Part shown: piece after piece, positions 20 to 11,243 of the stretch
Position numbering within the stretch: the first letter of the stretch is position 1
Layout of the letters: the number at the start of each line of letters is the position of its first letter
Source: an uncultured Lachnospiraceae bacterium
GTDB taxonomy: Bacteria > Bacillota > Clostridia > Lachnospirales > Lachnospiraceae
NCBI GenBank assembly: GCA_905236545.1
Contig: CAJOQO010000099.1
Span: 1 to 11,876 of the forward strand
Direction: 5' to 3'
DNA length: 11,876 nt
Notes under the pieces: generated by a model
What the model was told of the DNA's origin: nothing
Database searches by the model: none
What the model saw: only the letters and a program-made list of their open reading frames with translations
Translations under genes and position numbers: made by a program

Positions 20-1096
20 TTATCTGTCAGTCATACTGTATGTAAACACCTCGGATATTTCCCTGTCGTAACCGTCATAAAAACCGCTCGGCATCCCAAG
101 TATGATCCTCGCGCCTCTGTTATACAGAAGAAGCAGACTGCCTGTATCCTTATCAAAGGTCAGGCCTTCGATTTCTCCCTGCTTTGTCACATCATCGAAG
201 GTCCTCTCCAGCGTAACGGTGCAGAAGGTACTGTTATCCGTGATCTTTGTCCGGTACAGATGATCGGGTTCATTGTCATCGGCAGTTCCGTCATCCGCCG
301 TCATATAGAGATAACCATCATAGTATGCGATTCCCTGCAGCCACTGAGGCGGCATCTGCAGGTGAACCTTTCCAAGATACTTTCCCGTTTCCAGATCGTA
401 CCTGTACAGATAGCGGCCGCTTTCCTCTCCGACCCAGGAACACATCCAGACAGACTTTGTATCCGGATCCACCGCGATTCCGGAGCACTCAAGCTGTCCG
501 CTTTCCTCGTTAAAGGAGAAGGTCCTTTTCAGTTTAAGCGTATCGCCATCGTAAACGGCGATCTGGATATTCTTGCCGACGCCATCCATGAAATACTCGG
601 CGCCGATATACAGTTCATTCTCGTATACATCGATATCCGCGATGTGATTGACCTCCATCTCATAGCCCTCAAAGGGGGATTCATTTTTCAGAATCAGATT
701 CCAGTCCTTATCATATTTTGCAAGGGTGGTGGAACCGCTCACCCAGTAATACCCGCCCTCGGCGCATACGCCCTGTCTTCCCTCAACCTCCACAGAACCG
801 GTCAGGGTATACGCATGTACCGGCAGCAAAGCGGCAGGGTCATCCTCCGGCCTTGACGACGCGGCTGCCTCCGTCTCCTCTCCCTGCGTCCGGCCGTCCG
901 CATCATCAAATGCGTCATCCGCACCATCAAACGCGTCATCCGCATCATAAAGATCCTTCTGGTTCTCTTCCTCATCATACGCTTTATGAGTTTCCCGCTG
1001 TATCTTCCCGCCGGCATCCTTGCCATAAGCAATCGATACGCAGCCAAGCATCAGCGTACCGGCAAGCAGCCCAATCGTGGTCTTTCTAAGCAGCAT
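20..1096 (-). CDS. exported beta-propeller-like protein with acidic repeat linker
   Basis: A 358-residue protein that I recognise only as a likely extracellular beta-propeller. The start at 1096 is chosen because AAGGAG lies a few bases upstream; a TTG start 18 bases further out would place that site inside the gene. Residues 1-25 are a signal peptide (MLLRK, then a hydrophobic core). LMLGC at 15-19 fits a lipoprotein lipobox, so the protein may be lipid-anchored; signal peptidase I cleavage near AYG is the alternative. Residues 26-90 are a low-complexity acidic linker holding DADDAFDGADDAFDDADG. From about 95 to the end there are repeating short strand patterns such as KYDKDWNL, GIAVDPDTKSVWMCSW, YRYDLETGKYLG, GIAYYDGYLYM and GLTFDKDTGSLLLLY. 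These are typical of propeller or SdiA-regulated/YjiK-like folds. No catalytic residues can be assigned. It is divergent from the exported protein at 1339 and the promoter at 1161-1190 reads into it. Confidence 0.8.
   Translation of the reverse strand: MLLRKTTIGLLAGTLMLGCVSIAYGKDAGGKIQRETHKAYDEEENQKDLYDADDAFDGADDAFDDADGRTQGEETEAAASSRPEDDPAALLPVHAYTLTGSVEVEGRQGVCAEGGYYWVSGSTTLAKYDKDWNLILKNESPFEGYEMEVNHIADIDVYENELYIGAEYFMDGVGKNIQIAVYDGDTLKLKRTFSFNEESGQLECSGIAVDPDTKSVWMCSWVGEESGRYLYRYDLETGKYLGKVHLQMPPQWLQGIAYYDGYLYMTADDGTADDNEPDHLYRTKITDNSTFCTVTLERTFDDVTKQGEIEGLTFDKDTGSLLLLYNRGARIILGMPSGFYDGYDREISEVFTYSMTDR
900..948. repeat. 21 bp tandem repeat, about 2.3 copies, inside the acidic linker
   Basis: Units at 900-920 and 921-941 differ at only two positions, and a partial third unit starts at 942. 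The unit is a multiple of three and encodes a seven-residue acidic repeat (DDAFDGA / DDAFDDA) in the linker of the exported protein on the minus strand. Such in-frame repeats commonly expand or contract by slippage; that behaviour here is inferred. Confidence 0.85.
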
Positions 1097-1160
1097 AATT
1101 CTCTCCTTACACAATAATGAGCAATCGTATCCACCCTATCCTGTTGAATCGGCTCATTCG

Positions 1161-1248: not shown

Positions 1249-1338
1249 ATTATTGATCTATGATTGTCACGCATTATTCGCAGTATTCACTGTGAAACTC
1301 ACTGTAAATCCATAATCTGAACTGGAGGAATGTATTCT

Positions 1339-2301
1339 ATGAGAAGAACAATTGCGGCAGCTGCAACTGCCATATTTGCAGTATCGATGGTTACCACCGC
1401 TTTTGCAGATGATGTTACCGTCAGAACTTCGGTCGGCTCCGGAGAGGTCGTTTTCACGGAGACATCGGAAAAAGCGGAGATCTCCGAAGCAGATCTGACC
1501 AGCCTCGTAAAGAATGGCATCAAATCCCTGAATGAGAGTGAAGCGTTCAACGCATTCGTGGATGCGGAAGCATCCGTTACACTGAATCTCAGTGAAAAGA
1601 ATGCGATCAATCTCGTTGGAAGCGCCATCGGCACCTTCAATCGGAACCAGAATGACGGATATGCCTCTTTTTCCTATTCTCTGGAAGGAATCGGCGATCC
1701 TCAGAACGGGAAATATGAATCGTATCACTGGGTAAAGGATGATACCCATTATACTGCCGAATCATCCGGAAACGGCTGGACTGTAAAGGAAGAGGATCTC
1801 ATCTCTAAGGTTCTCGAACAGCTGGAGGACTCAATGGATGCGGAAGAGGTCAAGGATGTCTCTCTGGAAGGACTGCTTCCGAATCTTTACGAGGAGAACG
1901 GAGAGAAATACTATGTCTGCCTGTACAACAAGGACACGCTGATGAAGTCTGTCAGCAACATCCCCGGAGCGGAGCTGTATACCGCCATGGCGGAAGGTTA
2001 CCTGGAAGACAACGATATTAAGCTGATCGCGGTCGTGAACGCCAAAACCGGTCTTCTTCGTGCCTTCTCCCTGGATGCTTCCGGCGCCAGGGGCCAGCTT
2101 CCCGGAGAACTGTTAGGCGCAGAAGGCTCGATGAGCTACAGTGCCGGCGACCTCTATGCCACGATCCTCCTGGATACGGATGCGCAGACGATCGAGATTC
2201 CGGAAGAAGTCCTGAACACTCCGGTAACCAGGGAAGAGGGACTTGATCTGGATCTCAACTCGCTGCTGGGCAGCCTCGGTGTTGAGGGTGGCAACGAGTA
2301 A
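1339..2301 (+). CDS. exported acidic protein of unknown function
   Basis: A 320-residue secreted protein that I do not recognise. GGAGG at 1324-1328 sits 10 bases before the ATG at 1339. Another ATG at 1330 directly abuts the GGAGG and is too close to be used. Residues 1-23 form a clear signal peptide (MRR, alanine-rich core, AFA before D24); no lipobox cysteine follows. The mature part is acidic, rich in Glu, Asp, Ser and Leu, and has no membrane segment. It alternates helix-like stretches (SEADLTSLVKNGIKSLNES, EEDLISKVLEQLEDSMDAEE) with strand-like ones (YASFSYSLEGI, LIAVVNAKTGLLRAFSLD). A periplasmic half-barrel fold of the LolA/LppX or DUF6612 kind is conceivable, but this is only an impression. 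It is transcribed divergently from the other exported gene and ends at a terminator. Confidence 0.8.
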   Translation: MRRTIAAAATAIFAVSMVTTAFADDVTVRTSVGSGEVVFTETSEKAEISEADLTSLVKNGIKSLNESEAFNAFVDAEASVTLNLSEKNAINLVGSAIGTFNRNQNDGYASFSYSLEGIGDPQNGKYESYHWVKDDTHYTAESSGNGWTVKEEDLISKVLEQLEDSMDAEEVKDVSLEGLLPNLYEENGEKYYVCLYNKDTLMKSVSNIPGAELYTAMAEGYLEDNDIKLIAVVNAKTGLLRAFSLDASGARGQLPGELLGAEGSMSYSAGDLYATILLDTDAQTIEIPEEVLNTPVTREEGLDLDLNSLLGSLGVEGGNE

Positions 2302-3887: not shown

Positions 3888-5528
3888 TCAGCCGCGATCC
3901 AGAGCAATGAGCGCCGCCCCCAGCGCACCGCACAGCTGCGCCATGTCCGAAACAAAGATCTGCTCTCCAAGCTTTTCCTCCAGCGCCTTTACAACTCCCC
4001 TGTTCTGAGCCACACCACCCGTCATGATATAGGACGGCTCACCTCCAAGACGATGAACCAGGGATACGGTCTTTCCTGCCACAGCCATATCGAGTCCGTG
4101 AATGATATCCTCCGCGGGAGTGTTCTGAGCAATCAGCGAGACGACCTCAGATTCGGCAAAGACCGTGCACATGCTGGAGATCGCGACCTCGTTCTGCCAA
4201 TGAAGCCCCATTTCACTCATCTGAGACAGGCTGAGCTCCATGGTCCGTGCCATCATGTCCAGAAACCGCCCGGTACCTGCAGCGCATTTATCATTCATCA
4301 CAAAATTGATCACAGCGCCGGTCTCATCGATTCTGATCACCTTGGAATCCTGCCCGCCGATGTCAATCACCGTACGGGCTTCCGGAGAAAGAAAATGGGC
4401 GCCTCTGGCGTGGCAGGTAATCTCCGTAACAGAAGTATCGCAGACGCCGGTCGTCTCACGTCCATACCCCGTTGCAACAATGGCATCCAGATCGGACAGG
4501 GACAGGCCCGCCCTTGCGAGGGCGCTGTCCAGGGCTTTCCTTGCGCCGGATGCGGCGCCCTTTCCCGTGGGCAGAACAGCCGAGCCGATCATCCGGCCCT
4601 CCCGGTCCAGGATCACAGCATCGGTGCTGGAGGAGCCGCTGTCCACCCCCGCAACATAGCGAATCCTGTGATTCCTTCCGGACGCAATACCGCCCTGCGC
4701 CTGTATGGTTTCGTTAAATGCATCAAGCCGTGTGTGCAGCTGTCCGCCTGAGAGCGGCGTACTGTCCGTTTCGATCTTCAAGAGAGGCACCTCGCTGTTT
4801 TCCCTGCGCTGCCGGTAGGCAAAGCCGTAGTAATCACAGAATTTCACCGTATGACAGATGATGCCTGCAGCGTAAGGATCGGATTCTTCCCTGCGAAAAA
4901 GCATCCGCATGCAGGGATGCTCCTGTTTCAGGAGCGCACCGGCATAACCGGCATAGAATTCACCCCCCGCCGGTTCCGGAAGCCGGCGGCTGCCGGTACA
5001 GGTACCATCCGTCACCGGAAGGGAAGTCCTTTCACGGATCGTGTTCAGCAGGACTTTTCCGCCATGGGCTCCGGTCAGGAGAATATGCGGTTCTTTCCGA
5101 TCCTCCGCCTGTGCGGACTTATGCCAGGAGGCGAATGCCCTTTCTTCCTTCAGACGGCACCCAAAGGCCCGCTCCAGGGCTTCGCTCAGGCGCCGCAGTT
5201 CTTTTCTGATCAGGGAAACCTCCGCGTTCCCGCATTTATGCGGAAGGGAAAACAGAAAGAGAAACTTCATTCTCCCCTGGTCAAGAAGCACATCGTAGAT
5301 CCGGCGGCAGACATCGCAGCAGTCCACCAGGAGCAGGCTGTCAATTCCTTTTTCCAGAACCTCTTCCAGAACCGCTTTCCCATAGCCGCAGAGATTGGGA
5401 TGCGCGCAGCTGTCGGCGCACTCAAAAGACGCCGGAGCCGGATCCAGCCGTTCCGAGGGAACGCCAAACCCGTCAAGCAGTTCCAGCGGCGTGTATTTGC
5501 AGACATAGTAAACCGTGTCAGTCGTCAT
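3888..5528 (-). CDS. 2-hydroxyacyl-CoA dehydratase-type domain fused to an ATP-dependent [4Fe-4S] activase
   Basis: A 546-residue fusion. Residues 5-280 form a complete dehydratase/benzoyl-CoA reductase-type (HGD-D) domain: KYTPLELLDGFG (11-22), CGYGKAV (47-53), DCCDVCRRIYDVL (69-81), the LLTGAHGGK turn (150-158), YAGALLKQEHPCMRM (195-209), FCDYY (230-234) and LKIETDSTPLSGGQLHTRLD (250-269). C47, C70 or C71 and C231 are likely iron-sulfur ligands. Residues 288-546 form an HgdC/FldI-type activase of the ASKHA ATPase fold: phosphate motifs GVDSGSSSTD (294-303) and DIGGQDSKV (389-397) and the adenosine motif TGGVAQN (503-509). Cys415 (NDKCAAGTG) and Cys454 (SMCTVFAESE) are 39 residues apart, as in the dimer-bridging cluster of HgdC. 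Activases hydrolyse ATP to send a low-potential electron to the dehydratase. Start 5528 overlaps the upstream gene by 11 bases and follows GGAGAAGGGAAAG; a reading start at 5618 would add 30 residues unlike the family. The substrate is unknown; a double-cubane cluster reductase is the alternative. Confidence 0.9.
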   Translation of the reverse strand: MTTDTVYYVCKYTPLELLDGFGVPSERLDPAPASFECADSCAHPNLCGYGKAVLEEVLEKGIDSLLLVDCCDVCRRIYDVLLDQGRMKFLFLFSLPHKCGNAEVSLIRKELRRLSEALERAFGCRLKEERAFASWHKSAQAEDRKEPHILLTGAHGGKVLLNTIRERTSLPVTDGTCTGSRRLPEPAGGEFYAGYAGALLKQEHPCMRMLFRREESDPYAAGIICHTVKFCDYYGFAYRQRRENSEVPLLKIETDSTPLSGGQLHTRLDAFNETIQAQGGIASGRNHRIRYVAGVDSGSSSTDAVILDREGRMIGSAVLPTGKGAASGARKALDSALARAGLSLSDLDAIVATGYGRETTGVCDTSVTEITCHARGAHFLSPEARTVIDIGGQDSKVIRIDETGAVINFVMNDKCAAGTGRFLDMMARTMELSLSQMSEMGLHWQNEVAISSMCTVFAESEVVSLIAQNTPAEDIIHGLDMAVAGKTVSLVHRLGGEPSYIMTGGVAQNRGVVKALEEKLGEQIFVSDMAQLCGALGAALIALDRG

Positions 5529-6792
5529 GCTTTCCCTTCTCCAGCATCTCCAGAAAGGCGTCAAGCCTGGTGGCTGTCTGTCCGTCGGATGCGTTGCGTC
5601 TGTCGCAGCCATCCCCATTGAGGATCAGGGTGGGAAATCCCTGCTTTTCCAGATGCGTTTTCAACACGCCGGATATCCCCATGGTCTGTTTGCAGCCCCA
5701 GTGACAAAAGCAGATCACTCCGTCCGCATTCACTGCCCTGGCAGCCTCCTCCGCCGCCATGACCCGTTCCTGTCCCCCGTTCCAGCGGCTGCAGACAAGC
5801 CGTCTTGCCATACTTTCATAAGGCTGATCCGGATCGATATCCACCAGCCCCTCAAAGGCCATATCGCTGCCTGTGATCTGACACCGGTCATTCAGGTTCA
5901 GAAGCTCCCTCACAGGTTTCTGCCACTGCGGGATGGTATGAAGCCAGAGCAGCTTTGTCCCTTTTGCAGGCGCGGCGTTCCTGAAATCCTGAAGGAGCAT
6001 CTTTGCATACTTCGCAGCCCCTTCCGTGCCCAGAGCGTTGTGGGACAGATAGATTTCATAGAGCTCACTGGTCACATCACCGGGAAGATACCGGCTGCCC
6101 CTGTAATGCATGCACGCGCGGAGGGCTTCGACCGTATCCCTGCTGCGGATCATATTCTCCCGAAGGCGCTCCGGATCCAGCTTCTTCCCTGTACGCTCTT
6201 CCAGAAAAGCGGTCAGCTCCCGGAACTGATCCGCCACATAGCGGATGCTCTCTTCGTTCTGATCCTTTGGAACGTCCACATAATACTGCGGTATGTGATA
6301 ATACTCTGAAAGCTCCCGGAAGGTCAGGTTATTTGCATCGCAGAGCAGGGAGGTATTGACCACCATCGCCGGGGCAGGGAGAACCTTCGCATACGCGCTG
6401 CCGAGAAGAACTTTATGATAAGAACAAAAAGTCTCGGCGATTCCTTCTGCCTCAGCAGCTTCCGCAAAAACGGACTCTGCCCAGGTCCCGCACAGAAAGG
6501 CGGAGTACATTTCGGCGCACATCGGCACGATGTCCATCGCCTCCAGCAGTTCACAGGGCATAAAAACGCTGACCAGAGCCGCTTTTTCCGGATGGGACAG
6601 CATCCTTGTGACGGTACGGTTGATATGCCGGGCGGAGAACTGCCGGGAGGGAGGCAGCTGCCTGTCCGGAGCAAATGCCAGCCTGAGTCCAAAGGCACGG
6701 TAGCCGGCCAGAAGCAGCTTCCGGGTATAAACAGGTTTTTGCAGAGCATTTCTGCAGATGTGCTGCCCAAAGCTCCTGATTATATCAGCCAT
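5518..6792 (-). CDS. 2-hydroxyacyl-CoA dehydratase / benzoyl-CoA reductase family subunit
   Basis: A 424-residue HGD-D family protein, the size of HgdB/FldB-type subunits and of double-cubane cluster proteins (YjiM). Family signposts are MPCELLEAMDIVP (78-90), CSYHKVLLG (123-131), LLCDANNLTF (149-158), YYVDVP (170-175), DGVICFCHWGCK (357-368) and NGDGCDRRN followed by GQTATRLDAFLEML (404-417). Likely [4Fe-4S] ligands are C123, C151 and one of C361, C363 or C367. Such enzymes remove water from 2-hydroxyacyl-CoA by a radical route, or carry out other low-potential reductions, and need activation by an ATP-driven activase. The next gene supplies one, and overlaps by 11 bases. ATG 6792 is preferred over an upstream in-frame GTG at 6801; the ribosome binding site is weak, so translation may couple to the gene ending 41 bp upstream. 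No CoA-transferase or dehydrogenase lies nearby to fix the pathway. Confidence 0.9.
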   Translation of the reverse strand: MADIIRSFGQHICRNALQKPVYTRKLLLAGYRAFGLRLAFAPDRQLPPSRQFSARHINRTVTRMLSHPEKAALVSVFMPCELLEAMDIVPMCAEMYSAFLCGTWAESVFAEAAEAEGIAETFCSYHKVLLGSAYAKVLPAPAMVVNTSLLCDANNLTFRELSEYYHIPQYYVDVPKDQNEESIRYVADQFRELTAFLEERTGKKLDPERLRENMIRSRDTVEALRACMHYRGSRYLPGDVTSELYEIYLSHNALGTEGAAKYAKMLLQDFRNAAPAKGTKLLWLHTIPQWQKPVRELLNLNDRCQITGSDMAFEGLVDIDPDQPYESMARRLVCSRWNGGQERVMAAEEAARAVNADGVICFCHWGCKQTMGISGVLKTHLEKQGFPTLILNGDGCDRRNASDGQTATRLDAFLEMLEKGKHDD

Positions 6793-6814
6793 AAAAACCA
6801 CCGCCGTCCTGCAT

Positions 6815-6852
6815 CAGGGAAACACTGACGGAATCAAAGTTTCCTTTCCCTG
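6815..6852. repeat. inverted repeat spanning the permease-gene stop codon
   Basis: CAGGGAAA (6815-6822) and TTTCCCTG (6845-6852) are perfect inverses separated by 22 bases, spanning the stop codon of the 1469-residue gene and the short gap to the dehydratase. A hairpin here could act as a partial terminator or a processing site that tunes downstream expression. There is no T-run after it on the minus strand, so full termination is unlikely. Confidence 0.4.
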
Positions 6853-9800
6853 TCATCCTTCCTGTTCCAGACCGGCTCCTGCCTTACGCCAATCACTACA
6901 TGGTGGTGGTCACTTTCCCTTGTTTTGATCGTTTGCAGGGAATACGGCACTGTCATACCGTTTTTCTTCCTGCCAAACGTTAAGGCAAGCGTCTCCTCCT
7001 GTTCCGCCAGACGGATCAGGTTTCCTTTGCCGGTTGCCTCACTCACCTTCCGGGCATCAGCGTCGCACACATCCTCCAGCAGCTTCCGCCTTGCGTCTTC
7101 AAAGAAATCCGTTCCGGCAGGGCGGATCTCCAGATCGCCCTCCTTCCCCATGTAGAACTCCAGATAAAAGGCCGTCACGACGTCCACATAGAAGATACTC
7201 TCAAAATCACTGGTCAGCGCCTTGGAGATACTCATATAAGTCTTCTTGACCGCCGGCGTGACTTCGACCTTCTTCTTCGCGCGCTCAACCATAAAGCTGT
7301 CGAATGCTTCAGGCGGCACCGGTTTCGAGAAAAAATACCCCTGCACATAATCGCAGCCCATGGCTTTCAGAACCATATACTGCTCTTCTGTTTCAACGCC
7401 TTCCGCCACAACCGGCACATGCAGATAATCCGCGATATCGATGATCAGCTCGATCATGCGCACATCCCTTGTTTCCCCAAAGGCACTGCGTATAAAGCTC
7501 ATATCCAGCTTCAGCGCATCGATCGGGAGATGCGTCAGCATGCCGAGTGACGAATATCCTGTTCCAAAATCGTCCATCTCGATGCGGAAGCCCATGCCCA
7601 TCCCGCGCAGCTCCTTTGCTGTGGAAATCACCTGATCCGAATCGCCGGTATAAGCCGACTCCGTGATCTCCAGCATCAGGTCGTCCGGGCTGAGATCGTA
7701 TGTCTCCAGGATCTCTTTGAAGATGTTCTTCAGGTTTGGCGTCAGCATATCAATACGGGAAACATTCACCGACACCGGTACCGAAAAGCCGAAGCGGTTC
7801 TTCCAGTCCCGGATCCTTGCCGCCGCCTCGCGCCATACGAACTGATCCAGATCCAGAATCAGGCCATTGTCCTCAAGCAGCGGGATGAATACCCCGGGAC
7901 TGATCATCCCAAGCTCCGGGTGATCCCAGCGCACCAGAGCCTCCGCACTGGCCAGAACAGGATCTTCAGGACGGATATCATATTTGGGCTGGAAGTATAC
8001 CATGAAGCGGTTGTTTTCCAGGGACGGCCTGAAATCTTCCAAAAGACGTTCCCTGAACAGCTCTGCTTCATGCATTTTCGTATCATAGATGCCGATCGCC
8101 TTCCGATAACCGCTTCTTACCGTGTTTGAGGCAATCTTCGCATAGTCAAACCGGCGCTCAATCTGGAGCGACTTGTCAACCAGTGCGTAAACACCCATGC
8201 GAAGGCGGACACGGTTCTTCGACACATCCTCATCCACAAGGCCTTCCGAGGCCTTATCCAGTATGCTCTCATAGTCTTCCTTGTGCGGGCAGTAGATGAG
8301 GAAGGTATCCGCACCGCGGCGGCAGCATACCCCGCCAACCTCACGGGAGATCTGGCGGACGCGTTTTCCGATCCGGGAAAGGACACTGTCCCCGTACTGC
8401 TTGCCATAGCGCTCATTGAGCATATGAAAATGATTGACATCCAGGACAATGGCATCCATCGGCATGTCATGATAATGCTGGTCATACATCCGGACATAGC
8501 GGAGGAAGTAGTCAAGGTTCAGCAGATTCGTCAGGCTGTCGCGCTCCGTGGACTGGATGATGCTGCGCTTTTCCGTAAGCTCGATACACCGGTTGACGCG
8601 GACCTGGACGATCTCAATAGAAGGATACGGCTTGGGAATAAAGTCAATTGCTCCGATCTTCAGGCAGTCGACTTCAGCGCTCTGATCCGCTGTCATCACG
8701 ATGACAGGGATCCCCTTCAGCTCCTCCTCTTCTTTCATCACCTTCAGCACTTCCATACCGCCCATCTGCGGCATCTGCAGATCCAGAAGCACGATCGCCA
8801 GCTCGTCTTTGTGGCTCTTGACCTGCTCCAGTGCCTCGATCCCGTCGGATGCATACAGGATTTCATAATCCCCCTCCAGCATATTTCCCAGAATCATCTG
8901 ATTGATATGCTCATCCTCGACAATCAGGATATGACGCTTAAGGTGCATAATCTCCGCGTCTTCATCCTTCGGGAAGATCGGCTGTGCAGCCACCTCGGCA
9001 TCCTCCCTCGAGACAGCGCCCATTCCTTTGAGCAGCTTCTTTTCTTCATACATGAGTGCGTCTGCACGTTCAAAAGCATCATGGAAGCTGGCGTCCTCAC
9101 CGGATCTGAACTCCGACAGGCCGCCCGAGATGACAACCTCGTTTGTACTGATATGCGCCACGGAACGGTCATGCAGCGCCAGAACCAGTTCCTTCCTGAT
9201 CAGATAATCACGCCCCTGAAGGACCACGACAAACTCATCACCGCCGGTACGGTAAACCGGGCTGTGCTGGAAAATGTCGCAGATCATCTTACTTGCGCTT
9301 CGGATGTATTCGTCGCCTGCCTTATGGCCAAGCGTATCGTTGATTACCTTCAGGCCGTTCACATCACAGACCACAACGGCAAACCCATCCGTCTCTCCGT
9401 CCTGAATGGAGGCATCGATCTCCTTCTGCCGCAAAAGGAAAGCGTGCTTGCTCTTGACTCCGGTCAGGGGATCGACAAGAGCGATTGTCTGAGCCTCGTC
9501 GCGCTCCTGCTCTGCCTTTTTCTCCCACTTTCTCATGGAACGATAGTTATTGAGCATGACGATCAAAGACAGTCCGAATAAACCGACTATCACAAAAACA
9601 CTGGTATTGTCCGCGGCATGAAGCCGCTTCAGCTGCACCGCGAGGAATTCATCCTTGTCCTGCTTCAGAACTTCGGCGTCCGCAGTACCGTCCATGTAGT
9701 CAGAGATTTCTGCTACGATGGTGTTCTCCCTGTCTTCATTTAACCTTTCCGCCCAGGTCATCGCCATCAGTATGATAAATACCAGCAGGGCAAGCCAGAC

Positions 9801-11243
9801 AACGATGGCTTTTCCAAATTTTCTGTCATTGTCCCTGCGGATGACCCAGTTGAAATACACCACCCCGACAAACGACCAGACCGCCATAAGCACATAAGTT
9901 TCCGTCGCGATCGTATAGTCGGAAAAAAAGCTCGGGAAAAGCAGGAAGACTGCAAAGGCGACTAAAATGAACAGGCAGATTCCGCTGATCAGGCGGTTCC
10001 TTCTGGCTCCCTCCTGTCCCGAAGCCTTAAATACAGCTATAGACGCAAAGCCGTAGATCATGGTGGCGCCAAAGGTAGTGGCATCCACGATCCATCCGAT
10101 CGCCGTTCTTCCAAGGAACGGTATCGGCAAAGAGACAATCAAAACCAGAAGGATGGCGTTGACAGGGATCTGCTTCCGATTAAGGTCGGCAAAGCGTTCG
10201 GGCAGAATGCCATCCGACGCCACGGCATAGCAAAGACGGCTCAGCGCGCGCAGCATACCGATCAGGCTGGTAAGAACCAGTGCCAGCAGGGACGCCATCA
10301 GAATGTTGACGCCGGCCTGTCCAAGATAATGGTTTGCCGCATAGAAAGCCGGAAGTCCCGCGATTCCTTCAAATTCATCCAGCCGGCTGATATAATCGAG
10401 CCAGCCTGAACAGCCCTCCGGATAAGCGGTGACGCTCAGAAGGATCACAAAGATGTACAGCGCGGTGGTGACGGTTACGGAAATGACAAGAACACGGAAC
10501 ATATTGCTGTGCTTAAACCGGTATTCCGAAGCGGAGTGAGACACGGTTTCAAATCCGATAAAAGCCCAGGGCGAGATAAAGGCGATGCGGACGACCTGCC
10601 TCAGGACGCCCGTGTCCGGAAGGAAAGCCGGGCTCATGGTCATTCCGGAACGGCTGTGTCCCACCATGGCAGCGACGAAGCAGAAGGTAATGCCCACACA
10701 GAAGACCAGCACCATCCCCACCATGATCCGGGCAGTCATCTTTTTGCTCTTCATGCACAGCAGGCCGACAAGCCACATCACCACGAGGGTGATCAGGGCT
10801 TCCCCCAGGTAGACCTCATAGCCAAAGACGGTGAAGAGATACCACCTCTTAAAAACTGCCTGCAGAAAATACCGCGCGAACAGCGGGATGCTTGTAGCGT
10901 TCGCCCAGAAGATCGATGCGTAGATCAGGAACATGAACCAGGCGATCAGGAAGGCGAAATCATAGCCGAAAAGCTGCTTCACATAGTTGTACAGGCCGCC
11001 GGTACCCGGATAACGGGTCGCCAGAAAATGATAATGGCTGGAGACCATCAGCATCATGGCAAATCCGATCAGCAGCCCCAGAATGGAACCCAGAGGCCCC
11101 GCCTGGGAAAGATAGGATCTGCTGGTGACCACCAGAGAGCCCCAGCCTATGGCCGAACCAACCGACAAGGCCCAGACCGCCAGTGGTGAAAGATAGGGCT
11201 GAATCGGTACTGTATTCCTGGTATCAGATGTTTGTTCCTTCAT
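6834..11243 (-). CDS. APC permease fused to GGDEF-REC-GGDEF-EAL-PAS-like c-di-GMP signalling module
   Basis: A 1469-residue fusion protein. Start 11243 follows GAGGAG; a TTG 24 bases upstream is less likely. Residues 18-468 are an APC-superfamily amino-acid/polyamine permease: about 12 spans, the TM1 break SAIGWGS (30-36), YPGTGGLYNYV (78-88) and TM6 ISPWAFIGFE (223-232). Two more spans (about 478-497 and 548-565) enclose a charged, probably outside loop of 50 residues. A short coiled coil leads to GGDEF1 (588-740): metal residue D627 and intact GGDEF (667-671), but no RxxD inhibition site. REC (770-890) keeps E776-D777, phosphoacceptor D821, T851 and K871. GGDEF2 (900-1055) is degenerate (GADTF, 977-981). 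EAL (1063-1318) keeps EALVRW (1101-1106), N1160, E1192, DDFGTG (1224-1229), K1245, E1281 and QGYFFSKP. The last 140 residues resemble the PAS-like segments of clostridial GGDEF proteins. Both cyclase and phosphodiesterase look competent. The solute is unknown. The next gene begins 41 bp downstream. Confidence 0.93.
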   Translation of the reverse strand: MKEQTSDTRNTVPIQPYLSPLAVWALSVGSAIGWGSLVVTSRSYLSQAGPLGSILGLLIGFAMMLMVSSHYHFLATRYPGTGGLYNYVKQLFGYDFAFLIAWFMFLIYASIFWANATSIPLFARYFLQAVFKRWYLFTVFGYEVYLGEALITLVVMWLVGLLCMKSKKMTARIMVGMVLVFCVGITFCFVAAMVGHSRSGMTMSPAFLPDTGVLRQVVRIAFISPWAFIGFETVSHSASEYRFKHSNMFRVLVISVTVTTALYIFVILLSVTAYPEGCSGWLDYISRLDEFEGIAGLPAFYAANHYLGQAGVNILMASLLALVLTSLIGMLRALSRLCYAVASDGILPERFADLNRKQIPVNAILLVLIVSLPIPFLGRTAIGWIVDATTFGATMIYGFASIAVFKASGQEGARRNRLISGICLFILVAFAVFLLFPSFFSDYTIATETYVLMAVWSFVGVVYFNWVIRRDNDRKFGKAIVVWLALLVFIILMAMTWAERLNEDRENTIVAEISDYMDGTADAEVLKQDKDEFLAVQLKRLHAADNTSVFVIVGLFGLSLIVMLNNYRSMRKWEKKAEQERDEAQTIALVDPLTGVKSKHAFLLRQKEIDASIQDGETDGFAVVVCDVNGLKVINDTLGHKAGDEYIRSASKMICDIFQHSPVYRTGGDEFVVVLQGRDYLIRKELVLALHDRSVAHISTNEVVISGGLSEFRSGEDASFHDAFERADALMYEEKKLLKGMGAVSREDAEVAAQPIFPKDEDAEIMHLKRHILIVEDEHINQMILGNMLEGDYEILYASDGIEALEQVKSHKDELAIVLLDLQMPQMGGMEVLKVMKEEEELKGIPVIVMTADQSAEVDCLKIGAIDFIPKPYPSIEIVQVRVNRCIELTEKRSIIQSTERDSLTNLLNLDYFLRYVRMYDQHYHDMPMDAIVLDVNHFHMLNERYGKQYGDSVLSRIGKRVRQISREVGGVCCRRGADTFLIYCPHKEDYESILDKASEGLVDEDVSKNRVRLRMGVYALVDKSLQIERRFDYAKIASNTVRSGYRKAIGIYDTKMHEAELFRERLLEDFRPSLENNRFMVYFQPKYDIRPEDPVLASAEALVRWDHPELGMISPGVFIPLLEDNGLILDLDQFVWREAAARIRDWKNRFGFSVPVSVNVSRIDMLTPNLKNIFKEILETYDLSPDDLMLEITESAYTGDSDQVISTAKELRGMGMGFRIEMDDFGTGYSSLGMLTHLPIDALKLDMSFIRSAFGETRDVRMIELIIDIADYLHVPVVAEGVETEEQYMVLKAMGCDYVQGYFFSKPVPPEAFDSFMVERAKKKVEVTPAVKKTYMSISKALTSDFESIFYVDVVTAFYLEFYMGKEGDLEIRPAGTDFFEDARRKLLEDVCDADARKVSEATGKGNLIRLAEQEETLALTFGRKKNGMTVPYSLQTIKTRESDHHHVVIGVRQEPVWNRKDDRERKL

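Follow-up and report, generated by a model that had tools for sequence, protein, structure and literature searches.

A putative APC-fold permease receptor joined to a c-di-GMP control module, with interchangeable outputs among its relatives

The window analysed here, a whole stretch of 11,876 nucleotides from an uncultured Lachnospiraceae bacterium, carries on its minus strand an open reading frame of 1469 amino acids (11243..6834), which starts with an ATG at 11243 just downstream of a GAGG-type ribosome site seen on sequence inspection and ends with a stop codon at 6836-6834. The whole gene (6834..11243, minus strand) encodes an APC permease followed by TM13/TM14, GGDEF, REC, a degenerate GGDEF, EAL and a PAS-like tail. 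Pfam matches above cut-off cover AA_permease_2 (residues 18-440), GGDEF (588-736, in two stretches), Response_reg (772-880) and EAL (1069-1308), so chance domain matches are ruled out. The earlier note on this DNA had given the span correctly and omitted the strand; its description of a single uninterrupted frame is borne out by the ORF, by the Pfam search that it had proposed and by the structure model of the tail.

The permease part occupies residues 1-479 (9807..11243, minus strand), with GSAIGWG in TM1 and PWAFIGFE in TM6. It belongs to the AA_permease_2 sequence family by Pfam and has the 12-TM APC (LeuT-type) fold by structure comparison; an SLC5/SSF domain is absent from it, Pfam giving AA_permease families only. 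Residues 480-589 (9477..9806, minus strand) form a putative transmission module of TM13, an outer loop and TM14 (model helices 480-517 and 530-589), and residues 480-587 find no match in a Pfam set that may have no STAC model. In the structure model TM14 runs as a single helix into GGDEF-1 (9036..9482), which has an intact diguanylate cyclase signature without an RxxD I-site. This domain is followed by a REC receiver with the phospho-acceptor Asp and the conserved Thr and Lys (8604..8930), a degenerate GGDEF-2 with the motif GADTF (8130..8543) and an EAL phosphodiesterase domain placed by Pfam and alignment, with its catalytic residues present (7320..8039), all on the minus strand. The C-terminal tail (6864..7253, minus strand) is without any Pfam match; it is related to the PAS-like repeats of locus L067, and the order of strands and helices listed from the model can be read as PAS-like.

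About 33 nt after the sensor gene lies a gene similar to the D-component of 2-hydroxyglutaryl-CoA dehydratase (5518..6801, minus strand), and the two are possibly co-transcribed. The region 3888-6801 (minus strand) as a whole holds, besides this gene, a BadF/BadG-type activator to which additional stretches of the D-component type are fused. Two putative exported proteins, recognised by eye and without a Pfam match over cut-off, are encoded at 20-1114 (minus strand) and 1330-2301 (plus strand). Rfam gave zero matches at gathering score across the window.

Motif counts cover 158 full-length sequences: 119 database proteins, 38 from the loci described below and the window protein itself. Duplicates of the same gene are possible among them. 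The GGDEF-1 signature is intact in all 158 and preceded by an RxxD I-site in none, while the GGDEF-2 signature is intact in none. In REC the Asp and the Lys are present in 158/158, as is the Thr/Ser (157 Thr, 1 Ser). The EAL triplet is found in every sequence and the remaining catalytic positions in 157/158, one having a gap; the positions scored were those we take to be catalytic, namely EAL, Asn, Glu, DD, Lys, EGVE and Gln. The intactness of the key residues of GGDEF-1, REC and EAL, which the earlier note had read from the single protein, thus holds across the full-length sequences, and from these motifs the window protein is predicted to have both diguanylate cyclase and EAL phosphodiesterase activity. 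Its own genome (G000, 72% complete) contains 39 GGDEF and 18 EAL matches over cut-off. In the same 72% complete genome no PilZ match was found, with positive controls, and no c-di-GMP-I riboswitch match, where the control also gave none.

The protein is a member of a large family. A protein search that scored 7,992 candidates gave at least 900 with E<=1e-3, and all 120 listed (the window's own included) carry the same five Pfam families; source names are given for 9 of the 120, eight being 'amino acid permease' and one 'diguanylate cyclase (GGDEF)-like protein'. Bins labelled as distantly as Blautia, Atopobiaceae and Anaerolineaceae share 83-86% identity among these homologs, so that the bin labels are in question, as is horizontal transfer. 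When a permease alignment was run against species-representative genomes, it found at least 579 relatives, of which the best 79 distinct loci were kept, a set in which rarer architectures may be missed. Ruminant-gut type labels stand in the titles of 67 of the 79 loci (by label alone), and nearly all family members are metagenome bins, with one locus of the 79, L126, from an isolate, Ruminococcus sp. YE71, which encodes a permease-HD-GYP protein there. Of 200 genomes from the window's own family, 29 gave a match; domain scans of 20 regions hand-picked from 37 matches (the frames of G026, G043 and G124 being left out) revealed a signalling fusion in at least 13/200 and the exact order of the window in 3/200. 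In a sample of the phylum 21/299 genomes match, by frame length mostly with stand-alone permeases, and fused ones occur in three genomes. The architecture is found on contigs of other, related genomes.

Several different outputs are attached to the same kind of permease. Among 111 permease-like ORFs, two overlapping ones of L150, which look like pieces of a broken permease-kinase gene, were omitted, leaving a tree of 109 rows. These comprise fusions to GGDEF (40), GGDEF-REC-GGDEF-EAL (39), kinase (20), HD-GYP (4) and PAS-GGDEF (2); the outgroup of two Fe-ADH fusions, a truncated permease and a stand-alone one make up the remainder. With 26 of these proteins checked by Pfam, at least six outputs are seen on one APC-permease clade: GGDEF, GGDEF-REC-GGDEF-EAL, HD-GYP, PAS-GGDEF, histidine kinase-REC(-REC) and PAS-kinase-REC-REC. 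Nearly all of the 20 kinase forms carry REC, the HD and HHExxDGxGYP motifs are complete in 4/4 HD-GYP rows, and 41 of the 42 cyclase-only or PAS-cyclase rows keep GGDEF intact, the motif not being found in the other. The length of 1780 aa for L073, whose frame enters a run of N, is not real. In the later permease tree, from which the cut L136 kinase and the truncated L117 were omitted and to which eleven rows were added, the rows with c-di-GMP outputs fall together in a clade of 86 (SH-aLRT 100), which includes a single kinase, L160. Rooted on the Fe-ADH-type permeases, the tree places the stand-alone permeases first, then the kinase fusions and then the c-di-GMP clade, many forks being weak.

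The window's own genome encodes a second permease sensor, permease-kinase-REC-REC, on contig C294; apart from these two sensors it has no AA_permease_2 match at E<=1e-3 (72% completeness). The gene row with the permease-kinase on this contig (L063:1-10564) adjoins a molybdenum hydroxylase gene of the xanthine/aldehyde oxidase type. The Fe-ADH fusions join an APC permease to an iron-containing alcohol dehydrogenase (PF00465, PF25137) in a single frame of 899-947 aa (L081:5033-7729, minus strand; L082:2533-5373, plus strand); they come from two genomes of the same family, their permease is an outgroup to the sensor clade, and frames of similar length occur in L055 and L057. A distant genome of the phylum has two tandem permease-kinase genes (L170:396-5382, minus strand) of 838 and 820 aa, in neither of which REC is apparent by eye.

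The junction between permease and output is shared. An extra TM13, an outer loop of about 49 residues and TM14 are present in 104/105 fused rows across the outputs, just one of the two helices being detected in the kinase row L154, while the nearest stand-alone permeases (about 480 aa) are without TM13/TM14. Proteins of the 40 permease-GGDEF rows are 728-821 aa long, with 108-153 residues, mostly hairpin, from the permease match to the cyclase match and little sequence after the cyclase; L111 (122 residues past its match) is the exception. Because so little apart from the hairpin intervenes, no input other than the permease is evident in these rows.

The structure check that the earlier note had suggested for TM1 and TM6 found an APC fold with conserved site motifs. 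Gly29, Gly33 and Gly35 of TM1, Gly230 of TM6 and also Tyr108 are invariant in 107 sensors and 8 stand-alone rows, and Trp226 is present in 107/107 and 7/8, respectively. TM6 position 232 is Glu in 85/85 c-di-GMP sensors and 21/22 kinase sensors and Asp in 7/8 stand-alone rows; positions 235-236 are Pro-Gln in 8/8 stand-alone rows and mostly Ser/Thr-His in sensors. From these invariant residues and TM6 shifts, ligand binding by the sensor permeases looks conserved but retuned. Two other marks were tried and rejected. W34 of TM1 is not specific to sensors, since stand-alone relatives have it too. Proton-coupled APCs carry a TM5 lysine, and no Lys/Arg occurs at positions 178-189 in the sensors compared; loss of this lysine was rejected as a sign of lost transport because the stand-alone relatives compared also lack Lys/Arg there.

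The back half of the window protein has counterparts encoded as separate genes. A same-strand REC-degenerate GGDEF-EAL gene adjoins 9 of the 40 permease-GGDEF genes with gaps of 0-59 nt (L106, L118, L125, L128, L131, L140, L143, L148 and L157). Such a gene lies 319 nt upstream of permease-GGDEF in L098 and on the opposite strand in L119; at 30/40 loci no same-strand copy is close by, some of the contigs being short. The separate proteins of these eleven loci share 46-62% identity with the window protein's back half. In a tree of EAL halves, from which L112 was omitted because its contig truncates it, the 38 back halves of fused proteins group in a single clade (support 100) and 14 split ones fall outside, so that one fusion suffices. 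Given the nine loci with an adjoining gene, it looks as if a membrane cyclase and its receiver-controlled phosphodiesterase have been fused in the window protein, a point that the earlier note, whose anatomy was right, had missed. The EAL label needs nine changes on the permease tree, a quick tree with many weak forks, versus one on the EAL-half tree. Losing the back half repeatedly would reconcile the two most simply, although exchange of halves or domains, or tree error, may also account for the nine changes.

Candidate partners for the receiver are encoded near relatives. In L125, L131, L132 and L143 the gene immediately upstream of permease-GGDEF encodes a hybrid kinase, and the inputs of such kinases recognised by Pfam are PAS (L125, L143, L153), a dCache match below cut-off (L131) and a solute-binding domain (L098). 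In the window's own genome L063 has the order kinase-REC, REC-GGDEF-EAL, Hpt (PF01627) and permease-kinase-REC-REC. The order in L111 is the same, continued by permease-GGDEF-REC-GGDEF-EAL and permease-GGDEF, and its small gene clusters with the Hpt of L063. Moreover, permease-kinase is paired with permease-cyclase in L153, L161 and L136. From these arrangements in relatives and in its own genome, it is likely that a phosphorelay feeds the REC of the window protein.

As for the ligand, the dehydratase-pair proteins of the window have no relative among 195 neighbours of 105 other genes or in any ORF there, and a ligand deduced from this 2-hydroxyacyl-CoA dehydratase pair was rejected as weak because the pair is absent from the relatives' loci. 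Seven loci with stand-alone permeases, which share 26-30% identity with the window permease, were inspected (L080, L171, L172, L173, L175, L176 and L177). Sulfonate- or amino-acid-type (taurine/cysteate-type) neighbours are present at four of the seven. For instance, a scan of ten neighbouring proteins of L172, L173, L176 and L177 identified, over NCBIfam cut-off, sulfoacetaldehyde acetyltransferase (Xsc, L172), D-cysteate sulfo-lyase (CuyA, L176) and alanine dehydrogenase (L173), and class III aminotransferases stand beside the permeases of L172, L173 and L177. L173 holds three permeases. The stand-alone permeases of these four loci are candidate amino-sulfonate permeases; L080 adjoins genes that by look are presumably of choline/betaine type, and by eye the neighbours in L171 and L175 gave no ligand hint. 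These neighbourhoods hint at taurine-like amines or amino acids as the ligand, which serves only as a lead.

Taken at the level of sequence and structure model, the window protein is probably a nutrient receptor of the APC fold, of a type whose outputs are interchangeable. Its permease would bind a small amino acid or amine that sets the alternating-access state; binding would shift TM13/TM14, in the manner of a chemoreceptor or sensor kinase, and alter the cyclase activity of GGDEF-1. A separate kinase, in relatives perhaps the hybrid kinase or the permease-kinase with Hpt encoded alongside, would phosphorylate REC and thereby control the EAL enzyme, with GGDEF-2 as regulatory partner. A single molecule may in this way weigh nutrient against phosphorelay in setting c-di-GMP, and it may or may not also transport the solute.

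It is also conceivable, if rather unlikely, that transport and signalling run separately, with the permease as a permanent carrier or membrane anchor while the enzymes obey the PAS-like tail, REC or partner proteins. According to the available part of PMC7096432, CbrA without its transporter domain still signals, the transporter only modulating the kinase, and histidine left its kinase and phosphotransfer activity unchanged; a fused permease therefore need not be an input, and REC and the PAS-like tail do offer the window protein further inputs. However, the permease-GGDEF rows leave little room for any other input between their matches or beyond the cyclase, the junction is kept across outputs, and TM6 departs clade-wide from the stand-alone relatives. 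More improbable still is an ordinary transporter gated by c-di-GMP made or broken locally or by its attached domains, in the way that the K+ importer KimA is bound by c-di-AMP. The complete transporter fold with its kept site motifs would fit such a protein, and the structure matches of the permease part include KimA with c-di-AMP (8b70). Against it, the same clade with the same TM13-loop-TM14 is joined not only to cyclases but also to histidine kinases (20/109 rows) and HD-GYP (4 rows), and c-di-GMP gating fails to account for kinase outputs; the cyclase, moreover, is without a primary I-site (0/158). Added helices and coil typify signal output rather than transport, which again speaks against gating. 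Of the transceptor and the c-di-GMP-gated transporter between which the earlier note had left the choice, the kinase outputs and the junction hence favour the former. That the ORF is a sequencing frameshift or an assembly join, an explanation that the earlier note had raised, has next to no chance: the two halves do occur as adjacent genes in relatives, but 119 other listed homologs have the identical Pfam set at 75-90% identity, 38 further loci rows are fused, and the fused back halves are a single clade.

Sequence relatives of the window protein's back half are found among GGDEF-EAL proteins of the DosP/MucR type, which use other sensors and no permease. Structure matches to CAT, LAT and AdiC (SLC7 type) share 17-19% identity with the permease part, and the matched chains stop short of the TM13/TM14 hairpin. 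SLC5-STAC-histidine kinases, CbrA and MxtR (CrbS), and SLC5-STAC-diguanylate cyclases are described in the available parts of PMC7096432, PMC7918813 and PMC13022988. As far as these parts describe them, these SLC5-STAC proteins resemble the window family in having a whole secondary transporter joined C-terminally to a kinase or cyclase, but their transporter is SLC5 rather than APC (AA_permease_2), their coupling element is a soluble STAC bundle rather than a TM13-outer loop-TM14 hairpin, and the window family has outputs beyond theirs, namely HD-GYP and GGDEF-REC-GGDEF-EAL. The earlier note was right that transporter-sensor fusions exist and missed that the published record already includes fusions of transporters with cyclases (PMC7096432, available part). 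Ks-Amt5, an ammonium transporter-histidine kinase in which transport is lost and the kinase answers to ligand, likewise reuses a transporter fold as receptor; it differs in being an Amt trimer with a kinase only, and no such hairpin is described in the available part of PMC5764959. S-component/5TMR sensor kinases, presented in the available part of PMC11109136 as a large prokaryotic class of transporter-fold receptors, have an ECF S-component fold instead of APC. No APC permease fused to GGDEF, EAL, HD-GYP or histidine kinase appears in titles or abstract starts among the literature matches listed, and by term search a 2022 census of c-di-GMP inputs (PMC8846402) does not use 'permease' in its main text. 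Transporter-kinase and transporter-cyclase fusions are thus known as a kind, while the APC version, the hairpin and the output range are absent among the literature matches listed. The earlier note's remark that it knew of no described APC-GGDEF-REC-GGDEF-EAL protein stands as far as the literature matches listed go, yet the protein belongs to a large family.

A wider reading is possible, though we put it forward tentatively: the family may represent a general bacterial receptor class, in which an APC permease with one TM13-TM14 hairpin serves every common output, from cyclases and EAL or HD-GYP phosphodiesterases to histidine kinases, and in which kinase, Hpt and cyclase make up a circuit in single genomes and operons. 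The circuit loci would be L111, L063, L153 and L161, with permease-kinases, Hpt, REC-GGDEF-EAL and permease-cyclases, and the same or related amines might set both phosphorelay and c-di-GMP, perhaps through mixed oligomers. The receptor role of a fused transporter is open even for CbrA, as far as the available parts of PMC7096432 and PMC13022988 go. One clade with many outputs, small cyclase-only members (728-821 aa) and stand-alone cousins makes a direct test of this role possible. If the receptor reading is true, c-di-GMP signalling would gain a receptor of the permease type, and a signalling system common in ruminant-gut bins (67/79 loci by label) would be named.
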